64,000 nucleotides of DNA, from positions 124,001-188,000 of the forward strand of contig NZ_JAFKLZ010000001.1 in NCBI RefSeq assembly GCF_017304615.1, given 5' to 3'. Made by a program: the position numbers and the translations under genes. Of the stretch, positions 1 to 26,050 are shown piece after piece; within the stretch, counting starts at the first letter, position 1, and the number at the start of each line of letters is the position of its first letter. This stretch comes from Sphingomonas sp. Lineage in GTDB: Bacteria; Pseudomonadota; Alphaproteobacteria; Sphingomonadales; Sphingomonadaceae. Under the pieces are notes generated by a model that saw nothing but the letters and a program-made list of their open reading frames with translations, did not search any database and had not been told where the DNA came from.

Positions 1-430
1 GATCTTCGGTAACGCCAACACCTGGTGGTCGCAGGCCGCCGGAAAGTATGAACGGGGCAATGCGCCGAAGGTCGGCGCGGTGCTCTCGTTCCGGTCGACC
101 GGCAAGATGCGCCTCGGTCATGTTGCGACAGTTGCGGCGATCGTCAGCGATCGCGAAGTACTGCTCAACCATGCCAATTGGTCGCGCCGCGGCGGCATCG
201 AATATACCGCGCGCGCGGTCGACGTGTCGGCGGCGGGCGACTGGAGCGAGGTTCGCGTATGGTACGGGCCGCAGGGCGGCCTCGGCACTTCGGTCTATCC
301 GACCAACGGCTTCATCTACGCCAACGGCGCGCCGAGCGACGACCGGATGGATGACGAACCCAAGCTGCCCTCGCTGCAAATGGCGAGTGTCGCCGCCGGC
401 ACCGGCCGCATGGTGGGTGTGCGCGACTAA
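1..430 (+). CDS. CHAP-domain protein, C-terminal part (5' end outside window)
   Basis: The reading frame is open from base 2 to the stop at 428-430, so the gene starts before the window. The visible 142 residues include NTWWSQAAGKYERG, then GAVLSF and the GHVATVAAI strand with a histidine, and NHANW further on. This fits the second half of a CHAP (NlpC/P60-like) amidase domain, whose catalytic His sits in a G-H-V-A motif and a polar residue follows; the catalytic Cys would lie upstream. Such proteins are usually secreted peptidoglycan hydrolases. The tail after about residue 80 is low in recognisable motifs. A terminator hairpin follows 22 bases after the stop. Confidence 0.75.
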   Translation, partial: IFGNANTWWSQAAGKYERGNAPKVGAVLSFRSTGKMRLGHVATVAAIVSDREVLLNHANWSRRGGIEYTARAVDVSAAGDWSEVRVWYGPQGGLGTSVYPTNGFIYANGAPSDDRMDDEPKLPSLQMASVAAGTGRMVGVRD

Positions 431-5646: not shown

Positions 5647-5988
5647 CGCTGCCACGCAACTCGCGCGGTCGATCGGGCTGCCGTCCGGCTGGCGGGTATC
5701 GACATAGGTGACGGTTGCCTCGCCGCCGCCTTTGGACGGGTAGAGATAGGTGTCGAGAACGCAGATCGTCCCCTTGAACTGTAGTTTGCGCGCATTGCCT
5801 TCGCGGACATCGGCATCGGGCGCGCCGAACGTGCGGGTGAGTTCGGCGGCGTCACGGCCCATGACGCGCTCGAGCCCAGTGGTCGGGATCGGCCGCAGCA
5901 CGATCGGGGCCACGGTTACCGGGCGCGGCGCCGCCTCGCCGCATCCGGCAAGCAGCAGCGCGCCGCCGACTATCATCGCCCGCTTCAT
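5620..5988 (-). CDS. Small lipoprotein, unknown function
   Basis: A 122-residue product beginning with a lipoprotein signal (charged MKR, hydrophobic run, LLAGC lipobox). The mature part contains a phrase of the SmpA/BamE style ([22 protein letters not shown]... [13 protein letters not shown]), hinting at a small two-layer fold of outer-membrane lipoproteins, but I do not recognise a named family. The ATG at 5988 has GGGAG six bases upstream and overlaps the stop of the EI24 gene (ATGA), so the pair is probably translationally coupled. Its last 27 bases overlap queG convergently. Confidence 0.72.
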
Positions 5989-6665
5989 CGCCGTCTCCCA
6001 TGGAATTGATGAGTCGCCATCGCCGCGCCGAGCACGGGCGCGACAAGGTTGACGATCGGCACGCTCAGCAACGCCGCGACGATCACGCCCATGTCCCACC
6101 GCCTCCATCGCGTATCGCGCGCCCATTGTTTCATCTCAGCGCTGGACAGGTGCCGCGCCGCGACCATCTCGCCCAGATCGGCGCCGAGCAGCCAGCCGTT
6201 GGCCGCATAGAACAGCAACGGCGTGCCCACTCCCGTAACCAGCAGCACGACATAGACCGGGGCCAGCACGATATTGATCAGCAAGGTACGCAACGCGGAG
6301 CGCAACCCCATTGCCGCCGACCGCGCGATCGGCACATGATGCGCGCTGGCCAGCGCCTCCGGATAGTGCCGCCGTTCGACAGCGACCACGATCTCGTCGC
6401 CGAACAGCCAGATCACCGCTACCGCGATCGCGCGGAACAATACCCAGCCGAACAGCAGCATCGCCAGGAACCCGCTGATCGCGGCGAGATTGCCGGTCTC
6501 TTCGTCCCAGCCGAGCTGGTCGATAACCAGCCACCGCGTCGCGAACCACAATCCCGCGCCGAGCAAGAGGAACACGACCACCGTCAGCGCGATGGTCTTA
6601 GCAAACACGCGCAGGATCGCGGGGTCGGTCAGGTCGCCGATCGACAGGAAGAACGCGCGAAACAT
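5985..6665 (-). CDS. EI24-domain (CysZ-like) membrane protein
   Basis: A 226-residue protein with about five membrane segments. The order of segments, the central AALNGW-like stretch (here FYAANGWLLGADLGEMVAAR) and the total length match the EI24 family, which includes the sulfate permease CysZ. It probably sits in the inner membrane. No sulfur-assimilation gene is next to it, so a sulfate role is only a family-level possibility. It is followed by the small lipoprotein gene with a 4-base overlap and is divergent from the sugar kinase. Confidence 0.8.
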   Translation of the reverse strand: MFRAFFLSIGDLTDPAILRVFAKTIALTVVVFLLLGAGLWFATRWLVIDQLGWDEETGNLAAISGFLAMLLFGWVLFRAIAVAVIWLFGDEIVVAVERRHYPEALASAHHVPIARSAAMGLRSALRTLLINIVLAPVYVVLLVTGVGTPLLFYAANGWLLGADLGEMVAARHLSSAEMKQWARDTRWRRWDMGVIVAALLSVPIVNLVAPVLGAAMATHQFHGRRR

Positions 6666-22370: not shown

Positions 22371-22940
22371 TTAGCGGCATTGGACCTGCCCGCGGTCGAT
22401 CGACGACCCCAAAGCCGCGCCGCCAGCCGCGCCCAGCAGGGTGCCGAGCGTGCTCGACCGTCCGTTCGACAGTGAGTTGCCGATCAGCCCGCCCAGCACA
22501 CCGCCGACGATCAGGCCTGTCGTCCCGTCCGAACGGCGGCAATAATATTGGCCGTTCGATCCGCGATAGATGCGGTCGTTCCGATACAGCCGGCGCGGCT
22601 GGTAATAGCGGCCGTCGCGATAATAGCGGTTGGCATAATAGTAACGCTGGCCGGGCTCCAGCCGATTATAGTCATACCCGCGCCACGTCTGCCAGTTGCG
22701 CGTGTCGCGGCGATAGTCGCGCCGGGCGTCGCGGATTTCCCGATCGCGCTCGCGCTGCGCCCGGGCCACATCGCGGCGGCTATCGGCATTGCGCAAGTCA
22801 CGGCGATAGTCCTTGTTCGCATCGCGTACTTCGTCGCGATATTCGCGGCCGGCATCGCGCGGATTGCTTTGGGCAAAAGACGTCATCGGGGCCGCCATCG
22901 TGGTGGCGGCCAGGGCGGCCAGAAGGAGCCGTCGCATCAT
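22371..22940 (-). CDS. Glycine-zipper envelope protein with RcnB-like basic region
   Basis: A 189-residue exported protein: signal peptide ending near SFAQ, a highly charged Arg/Asp/Tyr-rich middle (REYRDEVRDANKDYRRD..), a YY/RY-rich stretch, then YCRRSDGTTGLIVGGVLGGLIGN and a second GxxxG run of the glycine-zipper 2TM type. It probably sits in the outer membrane or periplasm. The last 60 residues match the product of 23541-23849. Confidence 0.8.
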   Translation of the reverse strand: MMRRLLLAALAATTMAAPMTSFAQSNPRDAGREYRDEVRDANKDYRRDLRNADSRRDVARAQRERDREIRDARRDYRRDTRNWQTWRGYDYNRLEPGQRYYYANRYYRDGRYYQPRRLYRNDRIYRGSNGQYYCRRSDGTTGLIVGGVLGGLIGNSLSNGRSSTLGTLLGAAGGAALGSSIDRGQVQCR

Positions 22941-23039
22941 AATTCTCCCTTTCGTTTTGGAGTTCCCGTAAAACCCGCCGTGTCGCTCGAAGGTTGCGTG
23001 AACCCGAAACTACCGGGCGTTCAGGCGCGCGACAGGTTT

Positions 23040-23465
23040 TCAGGTGAGCGTGTGTTCCAACGTGATCTCGGCGTTGAGCACCTTCGATACCGGGCAGTTC
23101 GCCTTGGCGTCGGCGGCGATTTGCGCAAAGCGGTCGGCATCCATGCCCGGCACGCTGGCGGTCAGCGTCAGGTCGGATCGTGTGATCGCGAACCCTTCGC
23201 CTTGCTTGTCCAGGGTGACCTTGGCGGTCGTTTGCAGCGTGCCGTCGCTGAACCCCTCGCGGGCGAGGGCGAAGCTCAGGGCCATGGTGAAGCAGCTCGC
23301 GTGCGCTGCGGCGATCAGCTCCTCCGGGTTGGTACCCGGCTCGTCGCCGAACCGCGTGCCGAACCCGTATTTCTGGTCACTTAGCACGCCCGACTGCGTC
23401 GACACATGCCCGACGCCATCCTTCCCGAAACCTTCATATTTCGCCGAACCGCTGCGTGTCGTCAT
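23040..23465 (-). CDS. OsmC/Ohr-family peroxidase
   Basis: A 141-residue OsmC-family protein, which reduces organic hydroperoxides with two cysteines. Both are seen: HASCFTMALS and ANCPVSK. The GTNPEELIAAAHA helix is typical of the OsmC branch. The second ATG (23465) has GGAG six bases upstream and is preferred over the ATG at 23477. It lies between two glycine-zipper genes. Confidence 0.92.
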   Translation of the reverse strand: MTTRSGSAKYEGFGKDGVGHVSTQSGVLSDQKYGFGTRFGDEPGTNPEELIAAAHASCFTMALSFALAREGFSDGTLQTTAKVTLDKQGEGFAITRSDLTLTASVPGMDADRFAQIAADAKANCPVSKVLNAEITLEHTLT

Positions 23466-23478
23466 TGCTGGCTCCATA

Positions 23479-23514
23479 AGAAAAAAGGGGCACGACCCAT
23501 TGGCCGCGCCCCGT
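23479..23514 (-). terminator. Rho-independent terminator of the second glycine-zipper gene
   Basis: Read on the minus strand, GGGGCGCGGCC ... GTGCCCC followed by TTTTTTCTT. It ends transcripts from 23541-23849 just before the OsmC gene begins. Confidence 0.8.
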
Positions 23515-23540
23515 TCGTATCACACCTGACGGCGCAGCGC

Positions 23541-23849
23541 TCAGCGGCAGCGGCGCTTCTTGGTGATCGTCTTGTCGATCGCCTGGCCACCGAATGCCCC
23601 GGCCACGCCACCCACTGCGGTGCCGAGCAGCTTGTCGCCGCGACCCGCGATGCCGTTGCCGATCAGCGCGCCGGCGACGCCCCCAACCACCAGGCCGGTC
23701 GTGCCGTTCGAACGGCGGCAATAGGTGCGGCCATCCTTGCCGCGCCATTCGCGATAATGGTATTTCTTGGCCTGCACCGGCGTGACCGGCACGATGGCGG
23801 TCGATGCGACCATCGTCATCGCCCCGCAGGCGAGCAGCAGCTTTCGCAT
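23541..23849 (-). CDS. Glycine-zipper 2TM domain protein
   Basis: A 102-residue exported protein with signal peptide ending at VQA, then RTYCRRSNGTTGLVVGGV and a repeated GxxxG zipper (AGALIGNGIAGRG, GTAVGGVAGAFGG). It is a shorter paralogue of the protein at 22371-22940 and lacks the charged middle region. AAGGGA lies about seven bases before the ATG at 23849. Confidence 0.8.
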   Translation of the reverse strand: MRKLLLACGAMTMVASTAIVPVTPVQAKKYHYREWRGKDGRTYCRRSNGTTGLVVGGVAGALIGNGIAGRGDKLLGTAVGGVAGAFGGQAIDKTITKKRRCR

Positions 23850-23966
23850 GTCGAATTCCCTTTGCTTTGGATCAATGCCGCAAGCGTAACGTCTTTGCTG
23901 CCCGCAAAGTTTCATCCCGTTCCAAATCCCCTGCGGCAGCTGATCAGCATGTGCACGATATCCACG

Positions 23967-23975
23967 TTATCCACA
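23967..23975 (+). promoter_or_regulatory. Perfect DnaA box
   Basis: TTATCCACA matches the TTATNCACA consensus exactly. Two GAATC (GANTC, CcrM-type) sites follow at 24005-24015. It stands upstream of the hairpin-array RNA candidate. A single box is not an origin; it could modulate a promoter. Confidence 0.4.
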
Positions 23976-24035
23976 GGCTGCCGGCGTCGGTTAACGCTTG
24001 GCGCGAATCGGAATCGATGACAGCTTCATGACATC

Positions 24036-24750
24036 AGGAAGCTGAACGGCTTGGCGAGAAATCGGCAGTTTGTTCAAGGACTTGAGCTTCGAGAAACAGG
24101 CCGGACCGCAAGGGAAGGACGATGGTTTCGAAGGTGGGACATCGGCCCCCGCTGACCCCGGACGGATCGCGCAAGCGAGAAGACCGGAACAGGCATCACC
24201 GATGTTCCAAATGCGAAGAAGGTAGCTTCGGCTAGGTTCTTCGTAAGGCCGCCGGTGGCCGGGAATGCTGAGACTCTTCGGATGATCGCGCCCGGCCCCG
24301 ACGACCGAACCGGGAAGTCTGGTGGATCTTCGGATCAAACCGACGGATCGGATGCGAGATTCAGGAAGCCTTCGGGTTTTCGGGGTGGAGCAGATCGCGA
24401 AGCTGGATGTGCCTTCGGGTGGATCGAGTGGAGCGAGCCTTCGGAAACGGAGCGCCTTCGGGCGAAACCGGGCTGGGGCGACCGCGAAGCAGGAAAGGCC
24501 TTCGGGCCGATCGGTGGAGCGGGCGAAGCGAAGGGAGTCTTCTGACGAACGGAGCGGAGCGAAACCGCAGAGTTGCGATGGTCTTCGGGCCGCGCGGCCG
24601 AGCAAACCGTGAAACCTGGCGCCGCTCCTTGGAGCCGCACGGATGTAGCGAGCCGCCGAAACCAGAAGGCGCGGCAGGGGCTTCGGCTCAGGCAAGCGGA
24701 TCGAAGTCCGGCGACAGGGGAGTCGGTCGCAAGACCGGCTCCCCAATTGC
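24036..24750 (+). ncRNA. Candidate large structured RNA with UUCG/GNRA/CUUG hairpins
   Basis: About 710 bases without a credible gene (ends approximate). At least seven UUCG-capped stems are present: 24213-24244 (GCGAAGAA, GG/GG internal loop, TAGC-TTCG-GCTA, TTCTTCGT), 24317-24344, 24364-24381, 24406-24425, 24453-24464, 24497-24508, 24580-24591 and 24678-24689. A GCAA-capped stem lies at 24167-24178, a CTTG-capped stem at 24623-24634, and a 12-base-pair GCAA-capped stem at 24717-24744 closes the region. Stable RNA tetraloops of all three classes in series strongly suggest a folded transcript; the plus strand is chosen because TTCG/GCAA/CTTG are RNA tetraloops only in that sense. It is not a tmRNA, RNase P RNA, 6S or SRP RNA by the motifs I know. 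Overlapping frames are arginine/serine-rich and have no domain. Confidence 0.6.
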
Positions 24751-24797
24751 GTTTGGGGGCGGCTGGACTGGCAACATTTGCCTGATATCACGACGAC

Positions 24798-25412
24798 ATG
24801 TTCGTCTTTGCAGCCCTACTCACTATTGCCGACCCGACAGCGACCTTCATAGATGATTTGCGCAACTGCGGCATCGACGAGACGCGTGCGCTCGTGGAGT
24901 ATCGCGACGACTTGCAGGATCGCGAAACAGGTGTGGGTGGTTCGGCACCCGTATCGGACCAGCAGATGGGCTGCTTGGCTGAGGCTGCCGCGAAACATGG
25001 GTATTTCGTAGAGTTCGCCGATCCCGCGTTGAACCGGCGCTTCTCGGAAATCTACCGACCGAAAATGGGGGAGGTTGGCATGGCTGCGGCTCGACAGGAG
25101 CTTGCGAAACGAGGTCTGCTGGAGAAGGCGCCAAAATTCGATGCCGGGCAGCCGCTTCCTGCTTATGCGGGGCGTGTCGAACATTTTTGTGGAGCCAAGC
25201 CGGGCAGTCTGCTCATAGCGACTGGGGCGACAACGTTGACAATCGATCCGCTGGCTTTGCGGAAGATGCCTAGCAAAAAAGCCAGCGGTCAGATCGAATG
25301 TGTGCTGATGACCCTGATCGCCGCCGACCTAGAGCCCAAAGGCATGTCATTCGGATTCACTGGTAACGAAGCTTACGCACCGGCCCAACCTGATACCGAC
25401 GAGCGTCGCTGA
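24798..25412 (+). CDS. Hypothetical exported protein
   Basis: A 204-residue product of unknown family. The N-terminus (MFVFAALLTIADPTATF) may be a short signal peptide. Cysteines at about 24, 59, 133 and 175 could pair if it is exported. Base composition is less GC-rich than the neighbours, which hints at recent arrival. It begins 48 bases after the closing stem of the RNA candidate and is followed by the TRIC gene after five bases. Confidence 0.6.
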   Translation: MFVFAALLTIADPTATFIDDLRNCGIDETRALVEYRDDLQDRETGVGGSAPVSDQQMGCLAEAAAKHGYFVEFADPALNRRFSEIYRPKMGEVGMAAARQELAKRGLLEKAPKFDAGQPLPAYAGRVEHFCGAKPGSLLIATGATTLTIDPLALRKMPSKKASGQIECVLMTLIAADLEPKGMSFGFTGNEAYAPAQPDTDERR

Positions 25413-25417
25413 CCTCC

Positions 25418-26050
25418 ATGCTTCCCCACACCTCATGGCTCCCCGCGATCGCGCCGTGGCTCGACCTGGCGGGGCTGGTCGTGTTCGCTGCGTCGGGTGC
25501 GCTCGCGGCGGCGCGGCGGGGGCAGACGATGGTGACCCTGTGTTTCTTCGCGCTCGTCACCGGCGTGGGCGGGGGGACGGTGCGCGATCTGCTGATCGGC
25601 GCGCCGGTATTCTGGATCCATGACAGCCGCGCGGCGGCCGCCTGCCTGGTGGTCGCGTTCGCGGTGTGGCTGACCCCTGCGGCATGGTGGCGCGGGCAAG
25701 CGCTCGATTGGTTCGATGCGGTGGGCCTTGCTGGCTATGCCGTGTTCGGCGCGGCCAAGGCGATCGGTTACGGCGTGCCGCCGGTGCCCGCCGCGCTGAT
25801 GGGCGTGGTAACGGGGTGCGTCGGCGGGATCATCCGCGATGTGCTGGCGGGCGAGCCGTCGATCATCATGCGGCCCGAAATCTACGTGACCGCGGCGGCG
25901 CTCGCGGCAGGGCTGTATGTCGGTCTCGGGCAAATCGGCGTGCCGTTACCGGTCGCGGCGGGGTTTGGCGCAGTCGCCGGGTTCGCGTTGCGCGCGGTCG
26001 CGATCCGCTGGAAGCTCGCGCTGCCGGCCTATCGCGGCGGAACGCGGTGA
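25418..26050 (+). CDS. TRIC/UPF0126-family cation channel
   Basis: A 210-residue protein with seven membrane helices in two related halves. Each half carries the family motif: GVGGGTVRDLLIG and CVGGIIRDVLAGE. Bacterial TRIC proteins form trimers that conduct monovalent cations; the older name is UPF0126/YadS. Its stop overlaps the following GTG start. Confidence 0.92.
   Translation: MLPHTSWLPAIAPWLDLAGLVVFAASGALAAARRGQTMVTLCFFALVTGVGGGTVRDLLIGAPVFWIHDSRAAAACLVVAFAVWLTPAAWWRGQALDWFDAVGLAGYAVFGAAKAIGYGVPPVPAALMGVVTGCVGGIIRDVLAGEPSIIMRPEIYVTAAALAAGLYVGLGQIGVPLPVAAGFGAVAGFALRAVAIRWKLALPAYRGGTR

Follow-up and report, generated by a model that had tools for sequence, protein, structure and literature searches.

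What kind of element lies at 23958-24750 of the window (the whole stretch of Sphingomonas DNA that was analysed, 64,000 nucleotides), where tetraloop hairpins stand in an array on one strand? The initial annotation had taken 24036..24750 for a gene-free stretch with a large candidate structured RNA, in which no described class was recognised. Our results indicate that the locus is probably a gene in its own right, encoding a large, ornate non-coding RNA of sphingomonads, a reading that, taken whole, also comprises a putative control of its promoter and an action in trans. Judged from its sequence, the locus is an independent unit of promoter, RNA and terminator, with a conserved secondary structure and no coding signal; the structure is strongly supported, and a control of the promoter is suggested by its motifs.

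Extent of the unit and its tetraloop hairpins

The predicted non-coding RNA occupies 24032..24750 on the plus strand, about 720 nt from a start derived from the position of the -10 element to the end of the terminator stem. The interval first annotated had the RNA right and left out the promoter block (23958-24026, plus strand), which lies before it, so that the unit starts further upstream. The conserved promoter and the terminator, one at either end, are indirect evidence that the RNA is transcribed. In 74 loci the predicted RNA measures 399-822 nt, with a median of 563. The RNA ends in a stem of 12 pairs with a GCAA loop (24717..24744, plus strand), which had been described as a perfect 12-pair stem; it is perfect, and is best read as an intrinsic terminator. 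The terminator scan found one such structure against 1.3 expected from shuffles, so the call alone is not significant; the helix (helix 5 of the 3' module alignment) is paired in 99.7% of cells and changed on both sides in 6/10 pairs. In one genome (G030; L019, plus strand, about 5930-6000) the terminator hairpin core is doubled in tandem.

A hairpin listing over 24032-24753 confirmed the array of tetraloop hairpins on the plus strand. Where at least seven UUCG-capped stems had been claimed, we counted eight TTCG loops, at 24227, 24329, 24371, 24414, 24457, 24501, 24584 and 24682 (plus strand), each capping an unbroken stem of 4 or more pairs; TTCG loops at 24277 and 24379 close 2 pairs only. 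The two GCAA-capped stems of the annotation were found, one of 4 pairs with its loop at 24171 and one of 12 pairs with its loop at 24729, as was its CTTG-capped stem (loop at 24628, 4 pairs); a further GCAA loop lies at 24108 (2 pairs), and GAAA loops lie at 24058 (3 pairs) and 24444 (5 pairs). That such an array is improbable by chance is borne out by 500 dinucleotide shuffles of the window's RNA, in which TTCG loops on stems of at least 3 pairs averaged 0.22, with a maximum of 2, against the eight observed.

The same enrichment was seen across 74 related RNAs, which are not independent of one another: on stems of at least 4 pairs, UUCG hairpins numbered 142 against 3.6 expected, GNRA hairpins 263 against 34 and GCAA hairpins 149 against 2.9; all tetraloop hairpins taken together rose only to 940 from 630 expected. 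The dominant tetraloops are GCAA, TTCG, GAAA and GCGA.

Identification by known models gave no match. The tRNA/tmRNA search returned 0 genes in the whole window, and this identity was rejected; a repeat array was likewise rejected, the repeats in the region being only short and imperfect.

Homologues and taxonomic range

Plain BLASTN against the own genome and 60 relatives reached just 10 of the relatives, each belonging to the same genus, and for that reason covariance models were built. In homologues where both ends could be aligned, a conserved block stands at each end and the middle differs; distant members align by BLASTN at their 5' and 3' ends only, the repeated part remaining unaligned, and the length differences between subfamilies are blocks that hold hairpins.

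Model R1 describes the 3' end (6 sequences; 24649-24753 of the window). Model R2 describes the promoter and 5' hairpin (25 sequences) and leaves out the window's subfamily: from 28 aligned rows, the window, L027 and L030 were removed, since MAFFT had shifted this subfamily by one base in hairpin P1. The first MAFFT alignments also misplaced the inner 3' hairpin. Of the later alignments, A5 holds 67 sources (75 were searched for promoter rows, L024 being without a match) and excludes two chance rows, L059:3444 and window:46188, that were included in A4. E-values of both models are rough, as the calibration was short.

At E<=0.01, R1 matched 144/295 genomes of the genus and R2 141/295, and R2, trained without the window, recovered it at E=2.4e-24. 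An R2 match lies 100-1500 nt upstream on the same strand in 111/116 R1 rows (R1 E<=9.3e-4), the five exceptions being G003, G237, G122, a second row of G112, and G310. Since the two models share no sequence, this co-location is strong evidence for one unit. Taken together (R1 E<=9.3e-4, R2 E<=4.9e-5), the models place the RNA in 141/295 genomes of the genus; in the remaining 154 it is absent or was missed at these thresholds.

Across the order, R2 matched 80/396 genomes in 15/84 genera at E<=0.01. At E<=1e-5 the count was 32 genomes from 10 genera beyond the window's own, none of them outside its family; G050, a weak R2 row (E=8e-4), belongs to another family. In a class-wide sample of 385 genomes the own genome alone matched (E<=0.001), which shows that R2 is specific and that the RNA family is lineage-restricted. 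Twenty loci from outside the genus were fetched, and those listed contain the promoter, a hairpin-rich RNA and a tetraloop-capped terminator; an R1 match lies downstream of the promoter on its strand in 19/20 (E from 1e-5 to 0.11, only some of them strong), L160 having no R1 row. A genome of another genus (G615) carries two R2 matches that face each other from opposite strands at a distance of about 2.7 kb (L168:3001-3117, plus, and 5775-5902, minus); the other order-wide genomes listed have one R2 match each.

A promoter pattern search over one genome per species (84,980 species) returned 32 stretches, one bearing just the title Proteobacteria and every other one titled as a sphingomonad; named carriers include Sphingomonas soli, S. 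tagetis, Hephaestia and Stakelama. The promoter profile was found in 71/71 entries scanned, at 35.1-94.3 bits against a best opposite-strand score of -7.0. These entries are the window and 70 loci, among which L029 repeats the window and a few more share their genome with training rows; the weak rows L053 (promoter score 35.1, no GANTC) and L057 (38.9) were retained.

Conserved secondary structure

In the predicted RNA a 5' hairpin and a 3' module are fixed, and the array of tetraloop hairpins between them varies; all elements given below lie on the plus strand. Hairpin P1 (24033..24086), capped by CGA-GAAA-TCG, has 17 pairs, one of them changed on both sides and eight on one side, with 7/153 cells unpaired. 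It is followed by a second hairpin (24087..24133; GCAA loop 24108-24111) with two-sided changes in 6/17 pairs and 14/152 cells unpaired, and by a GCAA-capped hairpin (24163..24182; 1/6 two-sided) enclosed by helix 24136-24145/24199-24208 (2/8 two-sided).

The nested helices proposed at 24213-24244 and 24317-24344 are real, as two-sided covariation in the window's subfamily attests. The first belongs to a TTCG-capped nested hairpin (24211..24244) with 2/7 outer pairs two-sided and 10/63 cells unpaired, in which the consensus pairs next to the loop stand in another register and are poorly kept (9/27 cells unpaired); the second is a TTCG-capped hairpin (24318..24343) with 3/9 pairs two-sided and 0/81 cells unpaired. 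Between them lies a conserved domain, GGCCGCCG.GGCCGG ... CCGGCCCCGACGACC (24247..24306), of 19 pairs with 1/171 cells unpaired and no two-sided change in the subfamily. As this helix is nearly invariant there, it is mute on covariation; in other subfamilies its sequence is different yet complementary, as judged by eye and uncounted.

The variable array follows, with TTCG hairpins at 24359..24386 (3/10 pairs two-sided), 24395..24436 (6/15, two nested helices), 24449..24468 (1/6; 8/54 cells unpaired) and 24482..24522 (8/14, three nested helices). A hairpin whose loop is TTCT in the window (24528..24555; 3/9 two-sided) and a further TTCG hairpin (24572..24598; 4/9) precede the 3' module (24608..24710). 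This module, called from covariation and covered by R1 at 24649-24753, consists of the CTTG hairpin (24621-24638), GCCGCCGAAACCAG, an inner TTCG hairpin (24674-24693) and GAAGTCCGGCGAC; in the window's subfamily, 4/7 pairs of the CTTG hairpin and 2/6 of the inner hairpin are two-sided.

We compared these pairings with controls. In the 3' module alignment, which was fitted to the model and hence leans towards it, 94.9% of cells are paired, against 27-47% in slid controls, and 17/26 pairs are two-sided, a number that 0/500 shuffles reached. For the 5' hairpin, in subfamilies other than the window's, 80.5% of cells are paired against 28-40% when slid, and 13/16 pairs are two-sided; here the MAFFT alignment was unfitted to the structure, and the structure was taken from one row, which favours it over its slid versions. 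Consensus folds over the full length of four subfamilies (9, 9, 5 and 10 rows, that is 33/74 loci, picked by length and likeness) had energy z-scores of -12.0, -10.0, -13.5 and -12.1 and contained 54, 47, 45 and 37 covarying pairs against means of 29.8, 27.8, 19.6 and 18.6 (z 4.1-6.9), in comparison with 24 column-shuffled alignments each, a shuffling that loses dinucleotides. In the single sequence of the window the fold beats 20 shuffles by only a moderate margin (z -2.4 on the plus strand, -0.4 on the minus strand).

Covariation across related genomes, which the initial annotation had proposed as a check, is present in the 3' module, the 5' hairpin and the full-length folds. It exceeds the controls, as is characteristic of a structured non-coding RNA, and together with the absence of a coding signal it supports the large structured RNA that had been suspected here.

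Absence of a coding signal

In the region described as gene-free, mechanical ORFs are present, including one of 266 aa on the minus strand, but the Pfam scan of three ORFs of the region gave no match, and the codon-position tests were flat. In 8/8 comparisons the substitutions are spread evenly across the three codon positions (p 0.43-0.96), while the neighbouring gene 25418-26050, taken as control, shows codon periodicity (p=2e-15 and 6e-13). The runs of gaps are not multiples of three in 83/99 cases. Conserved coding potential had been named as a finding that would overturn the RNA reading, and it is contradicted by these even substitutions.

A protein-coding gene on the minus strand could draw on the 266-aa frame and on an excess of openness, since this strand is open over at least 90% of the RNA length in 52/74 loci against 27.8 in shuffles. 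The codon test outweighs this openness: periodicity is absent from all eight comparisons and strong in the neighbouring gene, most gap runs break the frame, and a Pfam match is lacking. We therefore rejected protein coding on either strand, and the chance that a minus-strand gene explains the locus is negligible.

Neighbouring genes

Upstream of the RNA, the divergent glycine-zipper gene (23541-23915) has a tblastn match in 66/73 other loci, a count in which the paralogue in the same block cross-matches. Among the 40 rows listed, 39 place the match on the opposite strand, 47-561 nt upstream of the box; that of L092 lies elsewhere. OsmC matches were obtained in 45/73 loci, on either side of the RNA, and a glycine-transporter-like gene matched in 19/73. 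In the window, two glycine-zipper paralogues flank the OsmC gene (22371-23915), and many loci again have pieces of this block next to the RNA. Just after the terminator, the 204-aa ORF 24798-25412 (plus strand) has no Pfam match and no tblastn homologue in any of the 73 other loci; it is probably an insertion peculiar to this lineage, which separates the RNA from the glycine-transporter-like gene. These synteny counts are lower bounds, because in 29 loci (all of L027-L056 except L029) the sequence reaches only about 0.7-1.1 kb upstream and no more than 1.5 kb downstream.

From this pattern (glycine-zipper gene 66/73, downstream ORF 0/73) it follows that the RNA is mostly inherited in place and is no conserved gene's leader. 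In the window itself, ORF 24798-25412 lies on the same strand and starts about 50 nt past the terminator stem, as would suit the riboswitch or attenuator of a downstream gene. This ORF is without a homologue in the 73 loci (L027 and L040 hold at most 150 nt downstream), the next gene is present in just 19, and a covarying intrinsic terminator closes the unit. The missing ORF and the closing terminator refute a leader as the general function, and a cis-acting leader is a highly improbable account of the locus.

Promoter architecture and putative cell-cycle control

Activators of class I bind around -61/-70, and at this distance from the predicted start the unit carries two tandem DnaA-box-like repeats of 9 bp, ATATCCACG|TTATCCACA (23958..23975, plus strand), centred at about -70 and -61. 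The second 9-mer is exactly TTATCCACA in 46/74 loci and differs from it in 28/74, being TTATCAACA in 12; TTATCCACA is also the DnaA box consensus as quoted in a passage of PMC8203912. The 20-nt box stands 19-21 bases from the -35 T in 74/74 loci (scan window 17-24). The own genome has one occurrence of the tandem box pattern and two of a loose promoter core, one of which is at the RNA locus.

The putative -35 element is TTGGCG (23998..24003, plus strand), the first two T of which are kept in 74/74 loci, the commonest forms being TTGGCG, TTTGCG and TTGGTG. After a 17-nt spacer follows an extended -10, TGA plus CAGCTT (24018..24026, plus strand); TGA precedes the -10 in 72/74 loci, and the commonest -10 is CAGCAT (37/74). 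A scan with an E. coli-type sigma-70 consensus found no promoter of that type.

Within the spacer, on the minus strand, lies a GANTC that fits the extended motif of GcrA, YGAKTCK, here CGATTCG (24004..24010). The motif occurs on the bottom strand in 70/74 loci (CGAGTCG 64, CGATTCG 5, TGAGTCG 1) and on the top strand in 0/74; because the rows are phylogenetically related, these are not 70 independent events. The best-kept promoter core is CGA[C/A]TCG, N of GANTC being C in 65 loci, A in 5 and never G or T, and the change from C to A is found in two subfamilies, window/L030/L031 and L062/L079. Four of the 74 promoters are without GANTC at the fixed offset, L087 and L092 having GATTC elsewhere in the block; outside the genus a GANTC was found in 19/20 loci, in a narrow promoter slice. 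According to passages of PMC7987155, YGAKTCK was proposed for GcrA-activated genes in Caulobacter, and in Brevundimonas subvibrioides this preference was not seen, with a slight one for C before the site. The RNA promoter resembles the GcrA/CcrM-controlled promoters described there in having GANTC in YGAKTCK within the promoter, and differs from that description in driving a non-coding RNA and in its extra tandem DnaA-box-like sites at fixed spacing.

A GcrA gene was found in 21/21 genomes searched, the own genome included, by a search whose control set also matched in Caulobacter and, unexpectedly, in Sulfolobus. A protein with a RAMA domain (PF18755) was found in 19/21, including the own genome (a 375-aa open frame); CcrM carries this domain, and the RAMA protein is a candidate CcrM-like protein.

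We propose that sigma-70 RNA polymerase would use the -35/extended -10 promoter, that firing would need GcrA at the CcrM-methylated GANTC (YGAKTCK) in the spacer, and that an activator at the class I position (-61/-70), most likely DnaA, would also be required. RNA output would be tied in this way to replication initiation and methylation state, since firing would depend on GcrA/CcrM and on a DnaA-like activator. Going by these motifs, we lean slightly towards a transcription coupled to GcrA/CcrM; for a coupling to DnaA the balance is even.

Comparison with known RNAs

The claim that the element belongs to no known RNA class stood: Rfam 15 gave 0 matches in the window at the gathering score and in 23900-24900 up to E=10, and a known RNA family was rejected. 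Nearest in kind are OLE, GOLLD and ROOL, which are likewise several hundred nucleotides long, elaborate, stand-alone and of largely unknown function (as parts of PMC12286853 describe them). They come from other taxa, by titles and abstracts, and no homology to them was found in Rfam; from OLE, GOLLD and ROOL as described there, the sphingomonad RNA is set apart by its conserved promoter and by a hairpin array that varies. Cryo-EM of these three RNAs, as reported in the same parts of PMC12286853, indicates that such RNAs can form RNA-only particles.

The 6S RNA (RF00013) is, like the sphingomonad RNA, a stand-alone structured non-coding RNA in alphaproteobacteria. RF00013 gave no match in 23900-24900 and matched elsewhere in 16/21 genomes searched (7 over the cut-off), among them the RNA carriers G004, G011 and G012; because it matches at other places, in RNA carriers too, we rejected identity with 6S RNA or replacement of it. 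In the own genome (G000) RF00013 has no match, and a diverged copy could escape the model.

Small RNAs have been described in related bacteria too. Zymomonas, the source of the Zms sRNAs, is a relative in the same broad group. The SuhB sRNA of Sphingopyxis granuli is also a sphingomonad non-coding RNA; by its description in passages of PMC6563040 it is Hfq-dependent, binds the thnR 5' UTR and measures 61 nt, too short to be the large RNA found here. CcnA of Caulobacter is a non-coding RNA in the alphaproteobacterial cell-cycle circuit, likened here by description only (PMC8959179, in part).

The open literature, excluding subscription journals and bioRxiv preprints, yielded no description of such an RNA among the matches listed. 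In the main text of PMC8632094 the sole 'sphingo' passage concerns the odc1 motif, and that of PMC11109978 has no 'sphingo' passage. The RNA family is real, large and apparently undescribed.

Possible function

In the mechanism that we favour, the terminal modules would be functional and the middle array would be a length-tolerant spacer or multivalent platform, so that a rigid, tetraloop-rich RNA may act in trans as an RNP scaffold or multimer. The conserved ends, the length-tolerant array of rigid tetraloop stems and the depletion of GGAGG are features that we count for a scaffold; action in trans is the weakest step, and we put it forward tentatively, somewhat short of an even chance. A bolder proposal, which we hold to be possible and on the unlikely side, is that the cell-cycle circuit of alphaproteobacteria has, as a structural product, an undescribed class of large RNA: DnaA and GcrA would drive a pulse of its synthesis by acting on a freshly (hemi)methylated promoter, and it would form an RNA or RNP particle sized by gain and loss of hairpin units.

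The main rival to a scaffold is a regulatory RNA that works through base pairing or serves as a CsrB-like protein sponge, or a precursor cut into several small RNAs. It would agree with the repeated hairpins with purine-rich linkers and with the autonomous promoter and terminator, and the variation in length by hairpin-holding blocks is as in multivalent sponges. The tetraloops, however, are mostly GCAA, TTCG, GAAA and GCGA, and the CGGA tetraloop numbers 13 against 7.2 expected, in a count of tetraloops only that leaves larger loops with GGA outside. Shine-Dalgarno-like GGAGG is depleted inside the RNAs (45 against 111 expected), and in distant members the parts aligned by BLASTN are the ends and not the repeats. 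On this evidence we regard a regulatory RNA or precursor as unlikely. A DNA-level element with an incidental RNA (a DnaA titration or reactivation site, an origin or a hairpin repeat array) would account for the tandem DnaA-box-like repeats and the GANTC site, and hairpins form in single-stranded DNA too. Against it, there are two boxes only, at a fixed distance from the promoter, and a single copy in the own genome; the loops are RNA-type tetraloops, the plus strand folds better than the minus strand, and the terminator is strand-specific. Such an element is very improbable, and a replication origin was rejected because the tandem box pattern occurs once in the own genome, with two boxes only.

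Leaving these rivals for the favoured reading of a stand-alone RNA that may serve as a scaffold, bacterial RNAs this large and complex are few, and the family is present in named strains and comes with two covariance models. Because the promoter predicts dependence on GcrA/CcrM and DnaA, the function of this RNA in sphingomonads would be open to genetic attack at once.
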